Source: Xylona heveae TC161
Taxonomy: Eukaryota; Ascomycota; Xylonomycetes; Xylonales; Xylonaceae
NCBI RefSeq assembly: GCF_001619985.1
Contig: NW_017264194.1
Span: 2,971,511-3,035,510, forward strand
DNA length: 64,000 bases
Direction: 5' to 3'
Numbering within the stretch: position 1 is the stretch's first letter; the number at the start of each line of letters is the position of its first letter. Below the pieces are notes generated by a model. It was not told the DNA's origin and did not search any database. It saw nothing but the letters and a program-made list of their open reading frames with translations. Positions 9,190 through 62,451 of this stretch are shown piece by piece. A program made the translations under genes and the position numbers.

Positions 9190-10105
9190 ATCCTGTTACG
9201 TTCAGCTGGCAAAACGGGAAAGGTCTGGTTGGTTTCATGAGATGCCCCCCATTCACCGGTTGTCTTCCGCATTATCGCAATAATCTTATTGTATGGTTAT
9301 TCGGGCTTGGTTTGCAAATACGGTTATAGTTATTCATTGTCCTTTTTTCCCCCCCTCAATCGAATATTTATCGTTGCCTTCTTCTTCTTCTTCTGCGCGA
9401 CCAAATTATCTCCCGTGAAATGGACAATTCTAGCCGCACTTCCGTAGGCTTATGAGGTGAGGGCGCTCCGTTGCCTAGGCGACAGTGTTTGCGGGTCAAT
9501 AGATCCTTTCCTAAAATGGCCAAAATCCCTCCACTAAGCTCATGGTGGCTTGCGACCTCAACTTTCAATCCATGCAAGACCCTGGTATATCGCTTTTATT
9601 CGTAATTACCTGCAACGACGACGAGCAGGAGTTGAGCTACCCCTCAAATTATTGGATCTTCAAGAAAAAGGGCTTGCGTTCGTTCAGGATGGACCCTTGC
9701 TATTATGCGCTAATCCCTGTGATCGCCCCTCGTGCGATTGCCGGTCTTCCCCAGCCTCCAGTAACACAATGTTTACCCGTTGACCTTTTTCCCGGCCACC
9801 TCATTTTGGGTTGCAGGATGCAGACCTGCTTCTCCTCCAACTTCACCTGAACTATTATTCGAATCTGGAAACCTGCTATAGTGCATACGCTCTTGCCAAT
9901 ACCCGGGCCCTAAGGAGTGAAGACTACACCTATCAATAAAAGCGACTGCCAGAAACCAAGTCAATAGATCCGCTCGAGTATCGTTCAGGCTGAGTCGGTA
10001 TCTTCGACGGACATCGTTCTCCATGCATTGAGAAACCGTTAATCGATCCTCGCGGGGCACCGCTCCATACCTCTGCCGTCATTGTTGGGATCTACGTCGT
10101 TGAAA
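9190..10105. other. Intergenic: permease 3' region and kelch-protein promoter
   Basis: About 0.9 kb with no supported gene. It includes a (TTC)5 run at 9379-9393 and C/T-rich stretches usual in fungal 3' and promoter regions. Overlapping short open frames around 9542-9850 have no recognisable content. Confidence 0.6.
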
Positions 10106-13100
10106 ATGAAGTCTACAATTAGACTGGCCTTTGGCCTGAGCAGCCTATTCTTCAAATTTGCGATTTCAGCAGTGCCATACAACCCCACTAGACTATATAT
10201 CTCATCGCACAATGGTTCTGAGATTGTTTACGCAATTACACCAGCATTATCCTCCGGCTCTAGTTTCGAACTTCTTGCACTTAATGCGACGGAATCGATG
10301 AATGCTTCAGCCTTGCCTTACAAGGAGATCTCTTCCTCCCTTCCTTTCCTTGACAACGGAAATGATGTGAATGTTTCTTTCATTCCTTCGGTAGACGATC
10401 GAGGCGTCATATCAATATTTTCAGGGAACTGCACTGCTGGCGCCGAGGGTTCAAGTATTTGGCGATACATTCCAAGCTCAACATCAGGAACCGATCCGGG
10501 AACATGGGTGATGGATAGCGTCAATCCCAAAGCAGCGCAGGGCCTTGGAAAGCTCACCGGAGCAAATTTCCTCTCAGCTGCCATTACTTATTCGAGCACG
10601 GTGGATGCCGATGACCCTTCCATGTATGTTTTTGGTGGAATGTGCCCGAATTCATCCTACCCTGGATCTGGACAGTCTGCGGCAGATTATAGCAACAACA
10701 TGGTGATACTCTCACCTAAAACTTCGGACGCATCGTCAGATTCAGTACAATATGACGAGGACATTGCCAGTAGCCGTGATCTTCCAATAGCAGAAGCCGG
10801 ATTTACCATAACTCCATTGCCGCCATCCTTTACGAACACAAGCAGCGGAACCAGAAGCAAGCAGCAAGATTTTGTACTGGTTGGCGGTCATACAAAATCC
10901 GCCTTCATAAACATGTCACAGGTCGCACTTTTCTCACTACCACAGGAAGGATGGACGTTTATCGCAGTCAATTCACCCTCAGTCGACGCCGAAACAGATC
11001 TAAGCGTCCGCGATAGTGTCGTGGTTGAGCCGAGATCCGGCCACACCGCTACATTGACTTCGGATGGGCAGAGGATTATTGTATTTGGTGGCTGGGTAGG
11101 GGACACTAACACTCCTGCAGATCCCCAGCTTGCAATACTTAGTATCGGTGAAGAATATGGTGGGGCTGGCAATTGGGCTTGGGAGATCCCGTCTGCGTCA
11201 GGTAATGGATTGGGGACTGGTGTCGGTCTTTATGGGCATGGAGCGGTTATGCTACCCGGAGACGTCATGATGGTTGTCGGAGGTTACCCAATTTCAACAA
11301 AAACGGGCCGCAGGGATGTTTCCCCTACTGAAAACACGAACTCTTACTTTCTGAATGTGACGTCCATGGAGTGGATTAGCTCGTACACTCCTCCTGCTCA
11401 AGCGCGGCCTAAAAATCCGGAATCATCGAAGACGACTGGTCACTTCTCTACTTCGAAAAAAGCGGGTCTTGGTGTTGGCGTCGCACTCGGGGTCATTGTG
11501 GCGATTATCCTGGCTTTCCTTTGCTTAATATGCTGTCGAAGAAGGCAACGTCGGCGCAATGCACGGAAGAGGGAGCTTGAAGATTTCATGAGGGGAACGC
11601 GCTACATGCCATTTGTAGGATCTTCTGTGGCCGGCGGCTTCGATGGTCGCGGAGGTCAAGCTTATATACCGCCAGCAATGGAACAACAGCGAAACATTAT
11701 GCTAGATGCGGCTTATCCTTGGGCAAACCAGCCTCACGAGGGAGCATTCGGAGGAGGATCTGGGTGGAGGGAGAATCGCGGAACGGATGTAGAACGAACG
11801 GGGCTCCTTCTCGACATACCTAGTCCGACGCGAGGCCTACGAAGGAATATGCATTCTCGAGCATCCCATCAGTCGGCTTCCTGGCATGAGGATAAACGAA
11901 AAAGCCAAGGATCAAGCGGCATTCATCCTATCCAGGAAAGAGACGAAGAAGAGATGGCACCTGGGACGGCGGACTCCGCTATGTCCGCCTCTGGACTTCT
12001 CGAATCCTCGGATCCAGGCATTATAGCGACTGCACCCGTTCTCGATCCTTTTGGTGACCCGGCTCCTCTAGGCAGCCATCCGATAATCAATCGAGCATCT
12101 CCCACGGATTTTGAACGCCGGAGAGATATCGAAGGATGGGTCAGCGACTGGGCTGCGGCAGATACTATCCTTCTCAACCCTGGTCGTGCCTCTCCAGATA
12201 AGTCTGACCGGACCTCATCCACACTGAGCGACCAGTCTGCACACTCAGTGAATTCCGTACATTCCCACCTCGCAAGCAGCTTGGGCCGAAGCGTCTCAGT
12301 TCGTTCAAACGGGATCTTCTCCCGGGGCAACACTTTTTCGAGCCACAGCACATCGCCTACGTTTGACCGATCATTTGGACGTGTTTCGCCCACGTTCAAT
12401 CGAAGAACACAAAGCCTATCTTATGCTCAACGACCAGAAGCATCTAAAACGAATGATTCCTTTACGACCGCGCAAACGTCATTTTCATTATTGCAAACCG
12501 AAGGCGAAGCTCTCCTCGGAGAGCATCGTCCCGACCATTATGATCACTCATGGTCTGACGCACCGAACAAGTCATCTCGCCGAACGGGTTGGATGGGGTC
12601 AATGCGCCGCGCTCTGCCATTTATAGGTGGTAATGGGGAAAGCAGCAGCAGCAGCGGCGGAGATAACAGCGATCGCAGCAATTCACTCCAATCACTAGGA
12701 GGCGGACGATATTCCCCTGCCAAAAATCATCAACCACCACGATACCATGATCACGAAGATAATGTCCAGTCAAACCCACTTCTTCCTCGCCGCGCAGCAA
12801 GTGCCTCGGCCGCCTTGTGGCAACAGCGCCGCCAGGGAGCTGCCGATTGGGATGTCGACATTCCTCGTCGAAGAACCAGTCATGCTCTCGGCACCAACAG
12901 GCACACTCTGTGGGACGAAACCGGAGAGGAGAATGATGACGAAGAATGGGATATCGAAGCTGCCGTTGAGAGGCGAGTGGTTCAAGTCATGTTTACCGTG
13001 CCACGGGAGAAACTTCGAGTCGTCAATGCAGATTCGGATGGTCTCAGCGTGAGTGAAGTTGGTGAACCCTCTTCAAGTACTGCACCAGCAGAAATGAGTG

Positions 13101-13132
13101 AATCTAAAGGCAAGGGAAAGGCTGAGACATAG
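10106..13132 (+). CDS. Single-pass membrane protein with extracellular kelch-like propeller
   Basis: Intronless frame of 1008 residues from the ATG at 10106. An in-frame ATG eight codons upstream (10082) is possible, but the later start places a signal peptide directly at the N-terminus (about 22 hydrophobic residues ending near AISA). The ectodomain (about 25-450) has many N-glycosylation sequons and kelch/galactose-oxidase-like blades: MYVFGGMC, DFVLVGGHT, SGHTATLT...IIVFGGW and GHGAVML...MVVGGY. One transmembrane helix follows near residues 454-476, ending in CCRRRQRRR, and sets the tail in the cytosol. The tail (about 530 residues) is Ser/Arg-rich and disordered, with an acidic patch near the end. 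The layout resembles a surface sensor or adhesion protein. No enzyme active site is visible, so function is unknown. Confidence 0.85.
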   Translation: MKSTIRLAFGLSSLFFKFAISAVPYNPTRLYISSHNGSEIVYAITPALSSGSSFELLALNATESMNASALPYKEISSSLPFLDNGNDVNVSFIPSVDDRGVISIFSGNCTAGAEGSSIWRYIPSSTSGTDPGTWVMDSVNPKAAQGLGKLTGANFLSAAITYSSTVDADDPSMYVFGGMCPNSSYPGSGQSAADYSNNMVILSPKTSDASSDSVQYDEDIASSRDLPIAEAGFTITPLPPSFTNTSSGTRSKQQDFVLVGGHTKSAFINMSQVALFSLPQEGWTFIAVNSPSVDAETDLSVRDSVVVEPRSGHTATLTSDGQRIIVFGGWVGDTNTPADPQLAILSIGEEYGGAGNWAWEIPSASGNGLGTGVGLYGHGAVMLPGDVMMVVGGYPISTKTGRRDVSPTENTNSYFLNVTSMEWISSYTPPAQARPKNPESSKTTGHFSTSKKAGLGVGVALGVIVAIILAFLCLICCRRRQRRRNARKRELEDFMRGTRYMPFVGSSVAGGFDGRGGQAYIPPAMEQQRNIMLDAAYPWANQPHEGAFGGGSGWRENRGTDVERTGLLLDIPSPTRGLRRNMHSRASHQSASWHEDKRKSQGSSGIHPIQERDEEEMAPGTADSAMSASGLLESSDPGIIATAPVLDPFGDPAPLGSHPIINRASPTDFERRRDIEGWVSDWAAADTILLNPGRASPDKSDRTSSTLSDQSAHSVNSVHSHLASSLGRSVSVRSNGIFSRGNTFSSHSTSPTFDRSFGRVSPTFNRRTQSLSYAQRPEASKTNDSFTTAQTSFSLLQTEGEALLGEHRPDHYDHSWSDAPNKSSRRTGWMGSMRRALPFIGGNGESSSSSGGDNSDRSNSLQSLGGGRYSPAKNHQPPRYHDHEDNVQSNPLLPRRAASASAALWQQRRQGAADWDVDIPRRRTSHALGTNRHTLWDETGEENDDEEWDIEAAVERRVVQVMFTVPREKLRVVNADSDGLSVSEVGEPSSSTAPAEMSESKGKGKAET

Positions 13133-48304: not shown

Positions 48305-51300
48305 CTACATCAACATCCAGTCCTGAAACGCACTCATCGTACTTTTTCGTGGTGACACTCCGTGTTGTTTTTCCATCAATGTATCATCCATGGACATGAC
48401 AAGGCCAGAGAAACCAAAACCCAGCTCTGAGCCCGACTTCCACGCCCCTTCTGCATTAATATCTCCACTAGAGGATTCCAGACACTCAGACTCGGCAGGT
48501 GAAGTGATTCCCACCAGGGGAATCATAGAGGGTCGTCCATGCGCGCATTGAAACGGAAATGCACATGTCGCGAGTCGAGACACAAGGAGTCCGCATTGCT
48601 TGTGAGATAATTTGTCATTGAACATGATTGCGCTTCTGCATGCGCGGGACGTTACCAGGTCGAGGATGCCCTGGGGACAGGATCCAATCTGCGACAGCCA
48701 CTTGCAATCATCCTTGGATTTATCTCCATCTTCTAGGGGTGTTGTCATTGCTGTAGCATCAGGCCATGTGCCATTCGAGTCGCGAGCATCCTGCTGCGTA
48801 GGAGCTTGCGTCTCAGATTGGCGAGCAGTAGCTCTTTTCCAGACTTCTCCACGCAAAATGTCAAGTAAAAGATGCGGTTCGAGTCTGCATCTCTCGGCAA
48901 TGATTGGGGGTAATGCTGTCACGGAGACCAAGCATTGGCGCTTAGCTGGGTTACGAGATCTCGATTTGTTGGAGGAATAAAGGTCGTAGAGGATACCCCA
49001 GCGGGCTAAATATTTGGCAGCTGTCCGGAAGAGAGGCTCTTCATTTGCTGAGACTGAAAAGATCAAGGGTTCCTTGAGTAATATGACATTGACGGCTGGA
49101 CTGTATCCAAGATTGGAACGAGGAACGCTGACCAAAGGCTCTGGCGAGGCACACAGGTCTGCGAGAAGCGCTTCTAATCGACATCGCTCATCGGCTGCGT
49201 GCTGGTCTATGCATACAAGTACCTCTTTGACTCCCGATGCCGCTCGGGCTGTAGGATTCAACTCTCCTTTCCTGACTTTGAGTTTGACAAGAATGAATTT
49301 TCCGTCTACTTGAGAGATGACGTGCGCATTTTGGAGTGCAGCTTTCGAGACTTTGATATTATCGGCAGGCGTGAAGGCATCTGAGATATGCGATGAATAC
49401 GCGGGCAAGTGTGAACCGTCATTGTTCTCGTGCGCGACCTTTGGGACGTCAAGCTCAGGAGGCTGGAATACAGGATTCTGCCAGCGTCTATAAACGCTTT
49501 GAAGCCATGAACCATGGCCGGAACAGGCAGGACTTCCTTGTTCGGACTTTGTACTCGAAATGGACCTGCACCGAGTTGGACGAGAAAAGGGTTCCGAGGA
49601 TGCTCGATGACGCAGCGATAAGTTCGAGCTCCAAGGTTTTGGAAATATTATCATTCCTGTTCTTGAATTTACTTGAAACACTTCTCCGGTGCCAGGATTT
49701 TTCCATGTAAACGTCTCGTCCTGTAATAAGTCTTCACTCTCGCCTCTAACCGAGGGCGGTGGCAATGTAGGATTGTCCGGAGACACGGCGGGGTCTGGAA
49801 CAGATATCGACGAGCAGAAATCTATGGAACTTGGCGTTGCTTCCGACGAGGACTGCCCCAGAGGAAGAGCTTCAGAGCTGGTACTGGCTGGTGATGAACC
49901 CTCTACCCTTAGGATAGAGCTAATATCCGTACGGATTTGGGATCTTCTGCCTTCTTCGCCCTTTCTGATTCGACTCAAATGACTAAACTCGTTTAGATTG
50001 TGCAACTGGCCTAACGAAAGACCAGTCAATATAGTTTGGTCCCGACCGGCCATTCCTGAATACATTTCTGTCGTCGCTGATGATGGCCTCGAAATCGCCC
50101 GAGACTCAGAGCCCGCATTCCCACCCTGTGTTGAATGAATTTTTGTCTCGATAGCGGTCTCTTGATCGTGGGTCGAATCAAAGTCCGGCAAAGGTACCGG
50201 CATTGATGGAGATACTTTGGGCATATCATAGTTTGAGCGAAAGCCATGAGCCTTGAGAAAGCCGTTTATCAAGGCTGTAATAAGATCTAAGACGATCTTT
50301 AACAGTTGATCGTTGAGAAAGAGCTCCTGTTTGAACACATTGTTACTGTCAGCAACGTTTTCAAAGTCTATTCGCAGGCAGAACATGGGCGATTTGTTGA
50401 TGGATCTTCTGGCAAATTTCTGGCGACGTCCCGTAGCGTCAGAGGCGGATGTCCCAAAACTGGATGCGGCAAAAAGGTTGTTGACTTCTTCGTAGAGCAC
50501 ATTGTATCCCAAGTCTCCTCTGACAGGGCTGATACCGAGTGAAATAAATTGGACACGGCGAGTGGGCGCAGGTTTTAGACACATCAAACCATTAACGGAA
50601 ACGGATGAGGTAGAGCCCGAAACAGGCACCCAGTCATCAACTGACCGGGTTGGGATGTAGGACGCTTGGTAGAGCAAGTACTGAACCAGAGCTGGATATG
50701 TCTCGGATAGGGTTGTGATGCCTGAGAGTTGCGACTGTCGCCTTTTGGAAACAAGGCTGCGAGAAGAAAATCGAACTTTATTATCGCGATCTCTGATAAC
50801 AACCGCAATTGGTTGAGCCCAAGCCAGCAATAAGGCGATAATACGATATTTGAGGGAATCTATTTCCCGTTCCATTGATAGTTGTCCCTCGAAGAGAGCG
50901 GCTCTATGCTTAACGCGCACAGGCATATCTCCAAACAAGTCTCGGACTATGACCCGCGTGCCGCGCTCCCGGAAAAGTATGTCATCATCAGATGAGACGG
51001 GCGTCAAGCGTGCAATGGGCCTGGCGCGGTGAAGTACAAGAGAATTCGACGGCTCTTGGAGAGAACGACAGGATGTTATTGTGACAATGGCGAGGGATGA
51101 CAAGGAGGCAAGAAAGGTGCCATACTGGCCATGCACCTGAGCAGGGCAGCCATACTTGGATGTAACTATTTGTTGCGATTAGTTACAGCAGCATCGAAAA
51201 GATTTGTGGAGAAGAATGCACAGTAGAATTTTCCCAGTCCGCCCTTTTCGTGAAATTCCTCAGCAGGAATCCCGCACCCGTCATCTTCAACGATACAGCC

Positions 51301-55572: not shown

Positions 55573-58565
55573 TCAGCTTTGAGAGTTTTGTTTTTCGACA
55601 TGCTCGGATACGGGAGTGTCGCTTAACCTTTTTTTCCATTTCAATGCTGTAGCTTGAAAGAATCTAGAGGCCCGGCGCGCAGACAAGAGTGAAGGTCGGC
55701 GTGTCGAAGACGTCTCATCGTCTTCTGAAAGCCTCGGGTCTACCTGTCTCTTTGCGGCCGGCACAAGATTCAAGTAGAGGGGGAAGATTGAGCCAAAGGC
55801 AAACAGTGCGACCACCACAGAGAAGGTATATGGGATGCCGCGATGGACTGCCAAGGGCATTTGGATAGGTGGGAAAACGGCACCACCGCAGACAGCAGCA
55901 GTGATGAACGCTGCTCCCGTTTTCGTGCGAGCGCCTAAGCCACGTAGGCAGATGGCGTAAATGAGAGAAAATATCGCAGCCTATAGTGATGTTTAATTTC
56001 TGGGATATACCTTTTCATACAAAGCTGATGCGACGCAAATCTGATGACATCCCGAGGGGTGACATACCTCAAAGAAATGTACGAGCATAAGAACAGCAAT
56101 TCCGGCATCGTTGCGTTGGTTCATGACCAGTGCCGAACAAATTATGGCTCCGATATAGCAAAACATGAGTACCCAACGAGGGTTGACGATGATAGTGGCT
56201 AGGGCCCCCAGAAATCGACCCACGGCAAAGACTGTATGGCCAATTGCCTGAATGTCATCCGGACTCAAGTTTGTCCTACCTCTGGTTAGCACAAGACTAG
56301 CAGGGGAGAGAGGAAGCGACACCGGGAGAGAGACTCGCCCTACTGACCTTCTCCCATCTATCGAGACAAAGTTGGTGACAGACATTGAGACTGACTCCTG
56401 CGCCCCAACGTAGCAGAATTGTGAGAAGACGCCGAGCGCTAACGTCCAATAGATGATAGGGACACCGGCAAACTTGGTAGCATTTATGCCGGCACGTTTG
56501 AAAGCGATTGCTTCCAAATCTTGATCGGAAGCTTCGGGCAGAGGAAAATAGATGAAAGCGACGGCAAGCAGGCAGGTAAAGAGGGAAATGCCCAAGTAAG
56601 TCCACTGGACATCGATGAGCGACGGTGCATCAAGGACCCTCTTGAAGAGAACCTTTTGCGCAAGAAGCGGGGACACGACACTGCCGATCGCTTGGATCCC
56701 TTGCGAGATGTTCAGGCGCACTTCTGCGTATTCTGGCGGCCCACAAAGAGCGATAAAAGGGTTTGCCGCGACCTCCAGGATCGAAACCCCCAAGCCAACA
56801 ATGAAGTTTGAAATGATAAACGCAGGAAAGGACGCTAAAACAGCAGATGGCCAAAAGATGAGTGTGCCACAAGAGTAAATGCATAGACCGGAGACAAACG
56901 TGGGCTTGAACCCCCATTTCTTTAGGACAGTCCTGCCAATGGTGAGGGGCCCGATCAGATAAGCGCCAAAATACGCGGCATGACAGCCCATAAACTCTCC
57001 ATTGCTGATCCTGCCCACCGCTTGAAACTGCTTATTGAGAATATCTAAGAGACCGTAGGCGAACCCCCAGAGGAAAAACAATATGGTGACCACAGACAGA
57101 GAAATGAGTGACTCTCTGTTGGACATGAACACCATACTTTTGGGATTCCGCAGGTTCACAAAGTCGAAGAAGGTAGGTCGAGCTGCTTCGGAAAGTCTCA
57201 GGGTACCGCCAGCGGTTGCCGCTGTGGTCGAGTTTGCAAGGTCAGGCATATCTCCAGGTGTCGTCAGGAAATCCATCATGCCCATCGGTTCCTCGCTATC
57301 AGTTGGAGAAGGAGCATCGCATTCGGTTGGATCTAACTGTGGGTGTACTCGCGCAGGATTAACAATCGAAGCTGGGTCCGCGGAGTGCACGGCTGCCGGG
57401 TTGACAATGGATGGAGGAGGAAGAGCTAGGTCTGGAACCGCCAATGCAGAGGATTGCGAAGCATTCAGGGTCGACGCATCGGCCGAGTCCTTCAACATCC
57501 TTGGCATGATGCGGGTGACAAGAGGCTTCAAGCCAGGAACATTGGCGATAAGGAGGCCCACGTTGATCTCGATGGCGCACCACATAAACGAAAGCGACGC
57601 ATACCCTAATTTCATGAGTTCATCAGCAAAGCATTCCTAGTAGGGAGCAAATGGCATTTCTACTCACAGGAGAAGTCGGTTTCTACTTCTGCAGATGTCG
57701 AGTGTCCCTGGCTGGCGATTTCGAGGAGCCGCGTCATGGAGGCTGATTGAAGATTCGCAATTCTCACTACATCGACGACTGTGACAAACGCACCGAGACC
57801 GAAGGTGATGACAAGGATGGTCTTTTGTTTGCGAGGAATTCGCATTCCCGTCAAGATCGGCATCGGCAAGAAAAGGATGGCCAGATCCGTGATAATGTTG
57901 ACGGGCGCAGATGACAACCACAGCGTGACGATATCGATACACTTGGAGTTCCCGACACCGACATCATGCCACGAAGCGGATACGGGGCGACACTGAAAAA
58001 TGTTCAAAAAGGTAAGTGCGGTTCCGGCCACGTCCACGACGACCAATGTAACAATAGAAGCCCATCGAAAGAGCGTTTGTGTCTTTGAGAGCGTCAAATA
58101 GAAGAGCAGAATCGACATTTTGGTAGCCATTAATGCGGGATTCTGAGAATAGAGTTAGACACCAAGTCTCCATTTCGCGGTAGAAGCGCCATTGAACCCA
58201 CGTATAAAACAGTGCATGTATAGATAGCCTTCTTGAGTGGCGTCTGCCATTGTTGGAGGATATCGCTCTCGTGACGACCCAGTCCGACGGAAGCGCCGTA
58301 GCAGACAGAGATGGAAAAACCGCAAGCGAAGATCTGCGCAAGGTTGTCAGTCAACGGGATTCTGTGTAACGTTCGGAACGATGCATCATCGACGAACCCA
58401 AGCAATGAAGATGAAATAATCATCCCATGAGATGCGATGCACAATGACAGAACGAGAGAACAGGCGTAAAAAGACAAAGAGCGATGCCACTGCAATGGTC
58501 ACAATGGTCACGGCCAACACGGCCGATCCCCGCGAATTGACATGACCCCCAACCGCTGACGACAT
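55573..58565 (-). CDS. Pth11-like rhodopsin domain fused to FucP-type MFS sugar transporter
   Basis: Six exons: 58565-58398, 58333-58202, 58142-57668, 57605-56348, 56275-56068 and 55980-55573, giving 882 residues. Residues 1 to about 290 are a seven-helix Pth11/rhodopsin-type domain: NSRGSAVLAVTIVT, SWDDYFIFIAW, VGLGRHE, NPALMATKMSILLFYLTLSK, CRPVSASW and the last helix SFMWCAIEINVGLL. A hydrophilic Pro/Ser/Ala linker (about 296-420) holds two SIVNPA.VH repeats. A full MFS transporter of the fucose-permease/fungal hexose type follows (about 423-818): LFFLWGFAYGLLDILN, ILEVAANPFIALCGPP and NISQGIQAIGSVVSPLL. A charged 64-residue tail ends it. Exon 4 (57605-56348) runs without a stop from the last receptor helix into the transporter, so the fusion is seen directly. 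It could be a sugar-sensing transceptor; that role is inference. Introns are 59-87 bp; the fifth is frame-neutral, and the first donor is GTTCGT. Confidence 0.86.
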
Positions 58566-60082
58566 ACTATACGCCAGAGGCTTCCTGGTGCGACATGATC
58601 AATTTGGACAACCAAGAAGTAACACAGTGAGCAGGTCGCAGAACGCGCAAAGGCAGCGTATACTGTGGGGGGATATCGACGGCAAAAGGACGAAAGGACA
58701 AGCAACACAATTCAGATGCAAGAAGAGAGGATATTGTTGGACAAGAAGAGGGATCGAATAGAAGTGACCCGGTGGCCTGGGCCCACGCGGCGAACAAGAT
58801 GGGGTTGGGGCTCAATAATAGAGATTCCCCAGGAATTCCTCATTTCGGAACTCTAGCAGGTGCCATGAGCCGCGGGCGAGTTTTATTCCTGAGCGGCACT
58901 CACTCACAAGAAGCCACTAGACCGCAGTGGTTACTTGTCCCGTACACAAAAAAGGGCGCTGGTACTAAGGAAATGGACCGGATCCAGTACCTTTCCTGCC
59001 CTGGTTATGGCTCCAACTCCTAAAAGTCATTTTTTGGCTGTACCCCGCGTATTTTTCGTTGGATGGTGGCTCTTTGGACCCATGTCCTATGTCGTCAGTA
59101 GGAATAGTAGCTCGCTTATTGCAAATCACACCGCGCGTTTGGGTTGAATTGCCCAGGACCCGGTGGACCGATGCAAGCGAAGAAAAGCTCCCAAGCACTT
59201 GGGCAACGAATGGTCCCCTTTGGTGCTGCGTCTCATCCTTGGTTTTGGCGCAATTCGACTTCTCCTTTTGAGGTTGCCATCCCCGAGCCGTGGGTTGTGC
59301 GCGTTCAAGAGTTGTGAACCGATCCAGTTTCGACGCGAGAAAATTTTCTTTTTCTCTTCTCTTCACACTTGTCGTAAGCTCACAAGAACCCCATACGCAG
59401 CAGATATTCAGTGCGATATTATCGTACCTACCTACAGGTAAGGTAAGAGACGTCCCTACGCACTCTGCTACGGAGTACGCAAGTGTTTGGGCCAGCAAAT
59501 CCCTTAAATGGAATGGCGCAACCCCCCATCTCCCGAATTGCCGCCCCCATCTGCCCCATTGGGCCAAGTATCTTGCGCGGCCCACCCACGTGAGCGGGAG
59601 AGCCACTTCTGCCAAGTGCAATTCACTTCAGTACAAGTTTATGATTTTGCTAACTTAAGTGGCCTACAAACCATCAAAAGCATATAGGGGCCCGGGCGGC
59701 CCGTTGCCAACAAAACTGGCGAGTCCTCGGAGTTGCCTCCCCAGAAGTTGTTCGGCATGGGAAGATTTTTCCCATTCCTCATTTAAACTTGACCGAAGGG
59801 TTCTTGGTCAGAGCAACGTAAATTTTTTGCTCTTTTTTCCCCCCTTCGTCGCCTTCCAAAAGTCTTGAATCAGGCCAAAGGTCACAACTGTTCACGTGAT
59901 TAGTTTCCGTCACTAAATCATCGAAGCGACAATGCGATTGAAGGAATCAAGGAGTATTGTAAAGTATCATATTCAAGTATCTATTCGTTTCATTACAAGG
60001 GATATCCAAAGATACAATGTACACAACGAAACCCCCAAAAAAGGTGGAGTTATCGAAGATTCGTAAGACTATTTTGCTTGCT
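58566..60082. other. Intergenic: fusion-gene promoter and gut2 3' region
   Basis: 1.5 kb with no supported gene. Both flanking genes read leftwards, so the left part is the promoter of the receptor-transporter gene. A 218-codon frame on the minus strand (58965-59621) has no recognisable content, no family motif and no supporting intron structure. Confidence 0.55.
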
Positions 60083-62451
60083 TTATTTATTCGCGGGGGA
60101 ATCGGTTCCCACAACGGGGTTGTGTCCTGACTCAAACTTGGAGTCGGTAGGAAGAGTCTGTTTTGACGGCTCTGGTTTTTCATTAGTCTATTGTTACAGA
60201 TGTATTGGTCGACAAATCTATTAAACTCACCTGGCTTTGCAATCAAGCTCGCCTCCGGCGACTCATGCCGTATCACTTTGCCTTTCTCCACCTCAGCGCG
60301 AGTCACGGTGAGTTTGTCCTTGGGCAGACCCATAGAACCAAGGAATGTGACAGAGTCTGTCCACTCCAAGGCTTTGCGTTTGCTGTCCCATTTCAATTCT
60401 TCGCCCATCATATCAATGATGCGAGGCAGAGCCTCTAGAGCTGCTTGTGCGTTCAAGAAGGCGAGACGGGTTCTCCGAGCAAGCACGTCAACGGCAGTCT
60501 GTGCGTACTCGTGCTTCATAGCATAGCGCACTTCTCCGTCAATAAAGGGATACTGCTCAGAAATGCGGATGCCACGCTCGGGGAACCGCTTGTCGGTAGG
60601 GGTAGAGAGAGCTGCAACCGTCCATGCTCGGTCACCATACGATTCCGCCAAGTGCTTGGCAACGTCGGTCTCAATTCCAAAATGTTGAATGAGGTTGATG
60701 TACAGGGTCTTCGAATAGCCGTGAGCACCAACCAAGCGAACCTGATGTGTCTGACAAGAACCGTCAAGCGCCGCGCCATCATCGATCATTTCAGTGCCGC
60801 TGATCTTGGGAGCATCAAGGACGGGGCCAGTCTTCAAGTCGAACGCCTTGATCGCCTCGTCGACAGTATCTTCGGCCATCTGACGGTAAGTAGTCCATTT
60901 TCCTCCAGCGCAAGTGAGGAGGCCCGAGGGAGACATGGTGACCAAGTGGTTTCGGACGAGGGACTCTGTATTCTTTGCTTCCGGATCGCGAACCAGGGGT
61001 CGAATGCCTGACCAAGCGGCAAGGACATCGCTGCGACGAACGGTAATATCAGGACCAAGATATCCGCGGATCTCGGAAAGAATCCAGCTGATTTCCTCTT
61101 CACCGGCAACAGGGTTAGGGGTGATTTTAGTCGGTGCGTCAGTCGTTCCAGCAATAGTGTTGCCCTGCCAAGGAAGGAAAAAGATAACACGACCATCAGA
61201 TGTGGAGGGGTCAATCAATCCCATGTGTGAAGGGCTGTAGTAACCAGGCAGAATAACATGAACTCCAGAGCTGGGCGAGACAATCTCTGGAACCTTTTGC
61301 TCGTCCAGCTTTCGAATAGAGTCAGTAAACGGTCCAGTCGCGTTGATGATACCCTTGGCTTTGATGGTGAACTCGTCCGTCTTTTTACCGTTCTTCTCGG
61401 AGACGAGATCCTTGACCTTTGCACCACAGAGCCGTCCATTTTCGTTCTTTTCGAGTCCAGTGACTTCCATATGATTAACAACATTGACGCCATACAAGGC
61501 GGCCGTCATGGCCAGGGAGACATTCATTCGAGAGTCGTTGTGGGCTCCGTCTAGACGAAAATTGAAATTAGCCAGGTATCTTCGTAAGCACCTGGAGTTT
61601 TTATCTTACCGTAGTATACAAGCGCTCCAAACAGACCGGTCTTCTTCAACATCGGAAATGCATCAAGAGCCTTACTTCGGGTCAGGAAGTAGGAGCTCTC
61701 AATGTTCTCCGAGCCTGCGAGGAAGTCATAACATTTTGTTCCCGCCCAAAAGTATGGGGCTTTCCACCATTTATCAATCGGAATCATAATCGGAAGCCAA
61801 TTCGAGAGATGGGGGGCCGTGTCGAGGAAATACTTCCGCTCGCGCAAAGCCTCTTTGACAAGTTTGTACCTAAAATAATGATTAGCCTTACCGCCGACAA
61901 AAGGAGCTTTGTGAGCAAAAGACTAACTGATTGTAATCCAATTCCCAAACAGCTTTCTCAAGGTATCGTACACCACCGTGGACAAGTTTTGTGCTTTTGC
62001 TACTCGTTCCACTGCTAAAGTCGTCTCGCTCCACCAAGGCGACTTTCAAACCTCGAGTGGCAGCATCAAGCGCAATACCTGAGCCCGTCGCGCCACCACC
62101 GATCACTAGCAGATCATATGGCTCTTCCGGGCTTTTGGCGGACTCCGGTAATCCCTTGGCTTTTCGCTCTTGGAACCAATCCATGACTCCATGCTTCTGA
62201 GTGGCGGGGTCAACCTCGCCACTGCTCGCCTTCAAAGCCGCTATTTGCTCATCTCTTGACTTTACAAGAGGAAAGCGTGGCGGAGAGAATGTGCCTCCCT
62301 CCCCGTATGTCGGAGGAGGTACAGCTGCAGGTTCTGAGCCCGGGATTTCTCTCGGACGATAGGAAATATAGAGAACGCTGCCACCTACAGCGACCGCTGT
62401 TGAGGTATAGAGCAATGGCCTCAAAAATCTGCGTCCTTGACGTGCCGCCAT
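60083..62451 (-). CDS. gut2: Mitochondrial FAD-dependent glycerol-3-phosphate dehydrogenase
   Basis: Four exons: 62451-61928, 61869-61610, 61550-60231 and 60171-60083, giving 730 residues. The N-terminus has a basic presequence ([10 protein letters not shown]) and a hydrophobic segment, residues 13-31, that fits an inner-membrane anchor. The FAD motif [22 protein letters not shown] is followed by [20 protein letters not shown]. The central [10 protein letters not shown] and [17 protein letters not shown] blocks are family hallmarks. The enzyme oxidises glycerol-3-phosphate to dihydroxyacetone phosphate and passes electrons to ubiquinone, serving glycerol use and the glycerol-phosphate shuttle. 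The last exon is the least certain: splicing 60230-60172 gives a hydrophilic tail ending in SPANK, while reading through would give a longer tail with no family resemblance. Other introns are 58-59 bp. Confidence 0.95.

Follow-up and report, generated by a model that had tools for sequence, protein, structure and literature searches.

Does one gene in this stretch of Xylona heveae DNA encode both a Pth11-like receptor and a FucP-type sugar transporter, and if so, what might such a protein do? The window, meaning the whole 64,000-nucleotide stretch that was analyzed, had been interpreted from its letters alone in what we call the sequence-only reading, which proposed a receptor and a transporter in one reading frame at 55573–58565 (−). 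From ATG to stop, splicing of six exons (58565–58398, 58333–58202, 58142–57668, 57605–56348, 56275–56068, and 55980–55573, all −) gave a translation of 882 amino acids, so the start, the stop, the length, and the exon at 57605–56348 (exon 4) are all as that reading had placed them. The five introns (64, 59, 62, 72, and 87 nt) are all of the GT..AG type. Upstream of the ATG, the frame meets its first stop at 58601, a distance of 36 nt, so it could not be extended in the 5' direction without a further exon. An upstream mini-ORF of nine codons, read from the sequence at 58567–58596 (−), stops a single base short of the main start codon; each of the two starts has an A at −3, and the mini-ORF could dampen or regulate translation of the main ORF.

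The N-terminal half of the predicted protein was placed by its match to PF20684 (Fung_rhodopsin), which covers residues 33–289 and profile positions 1–236 of 237 (E 4.3e-57, 193.8 bits against a cut-off of 27). On the DNA, this seven-helix domain begins near residue 33 and occupies the sequence up to the exon 3 boundary (57668–58469, −, introns included), with TM7 following in exon 4, and seven hydropathy segments lie within receptor residues 15–279. An excerpt of PMC5526305 gives LXXXR, DD, and GXH/D as class XIV motifs; by eye, DD is present in WDDYF and GXH/D as GRH, and the spacing of LXXXR is not matched exactly (LRLFSR). A search of PDB sequences with the receptor half returned no relative at E up to 1, and Pfam found no CFEM domain in the fused protein. 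Based on these matches, we assign the receptor half as an intact Pth11-like (class XIV) domain with putative G-protein coupling. It shares with Pth11-like GPCRs a near-complete PF20684 domain, seven helices, and, by eye, the DD (WDDYF) and GxH (GRH) motifs, and it differs from them in that the tail runs on into a 12-helix transporter.

The C-terminal half begins within exon 4, where the first part of a FucP-like MFS domain is encoded at 56348–57135 (−), and continues through exons 5 and 6 (55573–56275, −, intron 5 included), which hold the rest of the domain (by hydropathy, TM8–TM12) and end in a charged C-terminal tail. PF07690 (MFS_1) matched residues 431–659 (E 5e-14), and the crystal structure of FucP (PDB 3o7q) aligned end to end, over chain positions 21–424 (E 1.7e-33). 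Family models placed the domain at some distance from characterized permeases: TIGR00885 (fucP) scored 157.4 bits against a cut-off of 280.4 (E 6e-46), PRK10133 119.8 against 427, gluP 105.2 against 202.55, and NagP 65.2 against 625. A viral contig scan for exon 4 returned no relative. By these scores, the transporter half belongs with the fucose and glucose/galactose permeases of the MFS as a relative and not as an equivalog, with sugar:H+ symport putative. Together, the Pfam, NCBIfam, and FucP structure alignments bear out the two domain identities that had been proposed.

Asp-446 and Glu-536 of the fused protein, both encoded in exon 4, align with FucP Asp-46 and Glu-135, which we take to be important for proton coupling. 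The 12 helices, the end-to-end alignment, and these acidic residues of TM1 and TM4 are common to the fused half and its FucP/GluP relatives (TIGR00885, TIGR01272; PDB 3o7q). The fused half departs from those relatives in lying under all the NCBIfam cut-offs listed above, in the loss of a PTIF motif in TM10 (see below), and in having a receptor in front of it.

At a threshold of 1.0, hydropathy analysis of the whole protein gave 20 windows, of which seven fall within the receptor, 12 within the transporter, and one within the linker between them. The linker window was discounted as a helix, being weak (1.05) and in a proline-rich region, and the remaining count of 7 + 12 agrees with the approximately 19 helices first predicted. 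Class XIV receptors have their N terminus outside and their C terminus inside the cell, and both termini of MFS proteins are inside. Since the receptor would end and the transporter would start on the cytosolic side, a cytosolic linker fits both domains without strain, and both of its ends should be cytosolic.

Whether the two halves belong to one gene turns on exon 4. Its start (57511–57605, −) encodes TM7, with which the receptor helices are complete, and the closing part of that domain as far as residue 290; there follows the Ala/Pro/Ser-rich linker, residues 291–415 (57136–57510, −), and then the transporter. When exon 4 was translated unspliced (56348–57603), PF07690 (E 7.3e-12) and PF20684 columns 211–236 were found in the same frame, confirming that the exon passes from the last receptor helix through the linker into the transporter with no stop. 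Those 26 last columns of PF20684 match only weakly in exon 4 alone (E 0.083, below the cut-off), and the significance of the receptor assignment is that of the whole-protein match. Because TM7, the linker, and the start of the transporter share one exon and one open frame, the join between receptor and transporter does not depend on splicing.

The linker itself has the properties of coding sequence. A stop was looked for in its approximately 125 residues and none was present, compared with eight and four in-frame stops in the other two forward frames. A codon score trained on the other long open frames within the window was +0.154 for the linker frame, the best of six (the next, on the reverse strand, was +0.052), and was positive in both halves. 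The probability that 125 codons of a fixed frame stay open was 0.0106 by letter shuffle and 0.00825, 0.00045, and 0.0075 under three dinucleotide models. All five introns of the gene have a donor of the form GTNNGT, and no such donor occurs on the sense strand of 57600–57100; a narrower screen of the linker for GTRNGT, a form that misses two of the gene's own five donors, also found none. The linker has no polyadenylation-like words. Four specific ones are equally missing from the 3' flank of the gene, where only T-runs (five) and one TATAA occur among such words, and for this reason their absence from the linker is not counted as evidence. A scan of the linker for bacterial-type promoters and terminators was left unused as inapplicable to fungi. 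Structure prediction for exon 4 without an alignment had low confidence (mean pLDDT 40.2, pTM 0.23); it drew coil over the linker, in agreement with the sequence, and was given no weight.

Two other observations were made in this region. Linker residues 324–332 and 338–346 (57411–57343, −) form a near-perfect repeat, SIVNPAAVH/SIVNPARVH. A 193-codon stop-to-stop frame lies antisense to the linker at 57059–57640 (+) and probably just mirrors coding on the sense strand.

These data bear on the proposal that the locus makes two products, through alternative transcripts or an internal start, and that the open linker is incidental. Four Met codons (Met-366, -368, -369, and -378) lie in the second half of the linker, where translation of a separate transporter might begin, and a frame of 125 codons would be open by chance in ∼0.05–1% of cases. 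Against two products, one exon holds both TM7 and the start of the transporter, the linker looks like coding sequence over its whole length and is free of GTNNGT donors, and retention of intron 3 would end the frame before TM7 (ORF 57660–58154). As TM7 shares both exon and frame with the transporter, we rank a two-gene arrangement low and regard two products as improbable. An error of assembly or sequencing by which two neighboring genes lost the stop or the intergenic DNA that separated them would produce a similar picture, and a single assembly was available; the coding-like codon use in both halves of the linker, on account of which we rank such an error low, and the lack of any intergenic-like stretch between the domains make it a very remote prospect. 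The shared frame of exon 4 and the coding-like linker instead support the single-gene interpretation, and we hold with high confidence that one predicted gene encodes both domains. At the sequence level, the receptor–transporter fusion at this locus is real and unusual.

How unusual it is within the organism was examined by searching the 24.28-Mb assembly (17 contigs). The PF20684 search (18 of 18 candidates scored, 15 rows) resolved to 10 loci, including the fused gene, and none of the nine other Pth11-like loci of this genome showed a FucP-type domain. FucP-type matches at E up to 0.01 (two of two candidates scored) were confined to two loci, the fused gene and a gene on contig C14. The latter (L005, 2060–3781) consists of one open frame of 573 codons and lacks a receptor domain, and its transporter is 46% identical to the fused one over the domain. 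The earlier statement that Pth11-like receptors and FucP-type transporters are normally separate, which had been made for Pezizomycotina at large, thus holds within this genome, with nine receptor loci and one lone transporter. Because a general MFS search scored nine of 289 candidates, another Pth11-like receptor could still be joined to a different type of MFS protein. One of the Pth11-like genes, L006 (G000:C2:3045001–3045735), lies ∼9.5 kb past the end of the window on the same contig.

The separate genes also suggest how the fusion came about. By eye and with introns unmodeled, TM7 followed by a hydrophilic tail that ends at a stop is clear in three of the nine other receptor loci (L006, L007, and L010), and the tail is ∼99 amino acids in L007 and ∼85 in L010, also judged by eye. 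The N-terminal tail of the stand-alone FucP-type paralogue is roughly 40 amino acids. Since the length of the linker is close to that of a Pth11 tail plus this N-terminal tail, a tail-to-head gene fusion is suggested, and we infer that the C-terminal tail of a receptor became continuous with the N-terminal tail encoded by a transporter gene.

To see whether the transporter half has changed, the fused and stand-alone copies were compared with bacterial relatives. The best 80 of 187 relatives were kept and 78 used, L058 (too short) and L084 (no usable frame) being dropped. These had been picked by two TM1 peptide patterns, and conservation at residues 431–446 is thus partly built in; as the fused protein keeps those columns, this selection creates no departures found in the fused copy only. 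Conservation reached 90% or more of the 78 sequences at 85 columns; departures from these number 30 in the fused protein and 21 in the stand-alone protein (18 shared, 12 fused only, three stand-alone only; two-sided p 0.035). The same test gave p values of 0.049 and 0.035 at conservation thresholds of 80% and 95%, respectively, and 0.22 at the 43 fully conserved columns (five fused only against one stand-alone only). Mean identity to the bacterial relatives is 33.4% for the stand-alone protein and 28.7% for the fused one. FastTree placed the two fungal proteins as sisters (support 1.0), with a path from their common node of 1.376 for the fused copy and 0.363 for the stand-alone copy. Thus L005, although the tree sister of the fused transporter, lies nearer the bacterial consensus, and it differs further in its single frame and lack of a receptor domain. 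Relative-rate counts showed more private changes in the fused copy with every one of the 78 outgroups (median 45 against 27), but chi-square exceeded 3.84 with only 40 of the 78, which are not independent of each other. This relative-rate signal is uneven, and that, together with the conservative nature of about half of the fused-only changes listed below, weakens the case for a changed role.

The 12 fused-only departures comprise six non-conservative changes (Q467H, G483R, V662E, P752S, T753L, and G788M) and six milder ones (F475L, Y491F, L558I, F562I, S748A, and F755Y). Pro-752 and Thr-753 belong to the TM10 PTIF motif, which is present in FucP and lost in the fused protein; its Pro occurs in 77 and its Thr in 75 of the 78 bacterial relatives, and the stand-alone sister has both. 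The departures at 748, 752, 753, and 755 sit directly past the intron 5 junction and are read from exon 6 in a gapless alignment. They would not be a splice artifact of a later acceptor, since a later acceptor would delete residues and not change them. The column of Glu-536 holds Glu in 33 and Gln in 45 of the 78 bacterial relatives, and FucP Asn-162 is Gln in both fungal proteins. Taken together, the departures are a modest sign that the fused transporter may have taken on another function, whether as a sensor or for a new substrate, with its coupling residues kept; the faster change suits a changed role, and the kept Asp-446 and Glu-536 would fit an ordinary transporter equally well.

The same comparison weighs on a simpler account, a plain fusion without crosstalk, in which the fusion secures equal amounts and joint sorting of the two halves, each acting independently, the transporter as a hexose-type proton symporter. 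The completeness of both halves, the retained FucP acidic residues, and a long linker rich in Ala, Pro, and Ser are what such a protein would be expected to have. The faster evolution of the fused transporter and the loss of PTIF despite its near-universal Pro and Thr are not, and we consider this account possible though somewhat unlikely. A transporter half that no longer transports and serves only as the ligand-sensing module of the receptor, in the manner of yeast Snf3 and Rgt2, which are sensors with hexose-transporter-like bodies, would explain both the faster change and the fact that six of the 12 fused-only departures are non-conservative. Loss of transport is harder to reconcile with the retention of Asp-446 and Glu-536, the changes could instead mean another substrate, and the comparison involves one gene pair only; we view it as distinctly unlikely.

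The interpretation that we favor, tentatively and at somewhat less than an even chance, is that the gene yields one 19-helix membrane protein that acts as a transceptor with a flexible cytosolic linker. One transcript would give a single chain with an N-terminal Pth11-like receptor, a cytosolic linker, and a C-terminal FucP-like transporter. The transporter half may bind, and perhaps still carry, a sugar-like solute, and its conformational cycle could alter the signaling of the tethered receptor to its G protein. The built-in sensor–transporter for sugars put forward in the sequence-only reading is in this respect a hypothesis, with a sugar as the putative ligand. If a receptor is tied to a sugar-type transporter in this way, it would supply a candidate ligand class for an orphan Pth11-like receptor and make possible a direct test of coupling between transport and G-protein signaling.

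Several published proteins offer partial parallels. An excerpt of Gruber et al. (PMC3664084) describes a 15-helix PTH11-like protein that three Trichoderma species share and for which M. grisea and A. nidulans have an orthologue. It resembles the fused gene product in being Pth11-like with far more than seven helices, and it comes from distant Pezizomycotina; it differs in having 15 helices against 19, and the excerpt names no second domain. The two may belong to one family, if some helices escaped the published count, or to different ones. GPR155/LYCHOS, a transporter–7TM fusion of animals and their relatives that functions in cholesterol sensing (PMC12716839, excerpt), likewise joins a transporter-like domain to a 7TM receptor. 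There, the transporter comes first and has 10 helices, a DEP domain is C-terminal, and the protein is lysosomal, whereas here the receptor comes first and the MFS domain second. The presence of this fusion and the 15-helix protein in print tempers the novelty of the one reported here. That a Pth11-like receptor acquired its ligand-sensing half by recruiting a sugar-transporter body, which would make it a fungal GPCR-transceptor invented independently of LYCHOS, is an unlikely idea on present data. Oomycete GPCR-bigrams also place an N-terminal GPCR and a C-terminal effector domain in one chain (PMC6033456), but the accessory domains listed in the excerpt are enzymes, and the word "transporter" occurs in it 0 times. 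The MFS protein MCT8 alters MC4R signaling through direct interaction (PMC11277258, excerpt) and, like GPR155/LYCHOS, is a precedent for the transceptor model. The "15 transmembrane" of PMC5307856 was set aside as a parallel, as in the excerpt it concerns urea transporters.

No description of a Pth11–MFS fusion was found in the examined excerpts of open-license PMC papers. Xu et al. use none of the words "MFS," "transporter," "fusion," and "fused"; "fused" and "major facilitator" occur 0 times in the excerpt of a 2026 review (PMC13308352), as do "MFS" and "fused" in that of a Neurospora survey (PMC4683645), and the excerpts of PMC3576715 and PMC5425790 contain nothing on fusion. Among the receptor classes of fungi, the Pth11-like one is the most abundant (29.6%; PMC12842992, excerpt), and fungal GPCRs are mostly orphans (PMC13308352). 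According to the excerpt of PMC12842992, this 2025 survey of 1357 fungi kept proteins with 6–7 helices (7–9 for class 9) and demanded mutual coverage of >75% in its BLAST step. With ∼19 helices, the fused protein falls outside this 6–7-helix whole-protein filter, which belongs to the survey and is no biological criterion. Together, the helix filter and the coverage demand would cause 19-helix fusions to be missed, and this would expose a gap in published GPCR surveys, from which a filter on helix number removes such fusions.

Elsewhere in the window, Pfam returned nothing at E ≤ 0.001 for a 957-codon open frame at 48308–51178 (−). The upstream same-strand neighbor of the fused gene, at 59947–61605 (−), is a glycerol-3-phosphate dehydrogenase/oxidase-type gene (PF16901, PF01266). 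A 1029-codon open frame at 10043–13129 (+) has Kelch-type repeats whose scores do not reach the cut-off of Pfam; a membrane segment may come after them.
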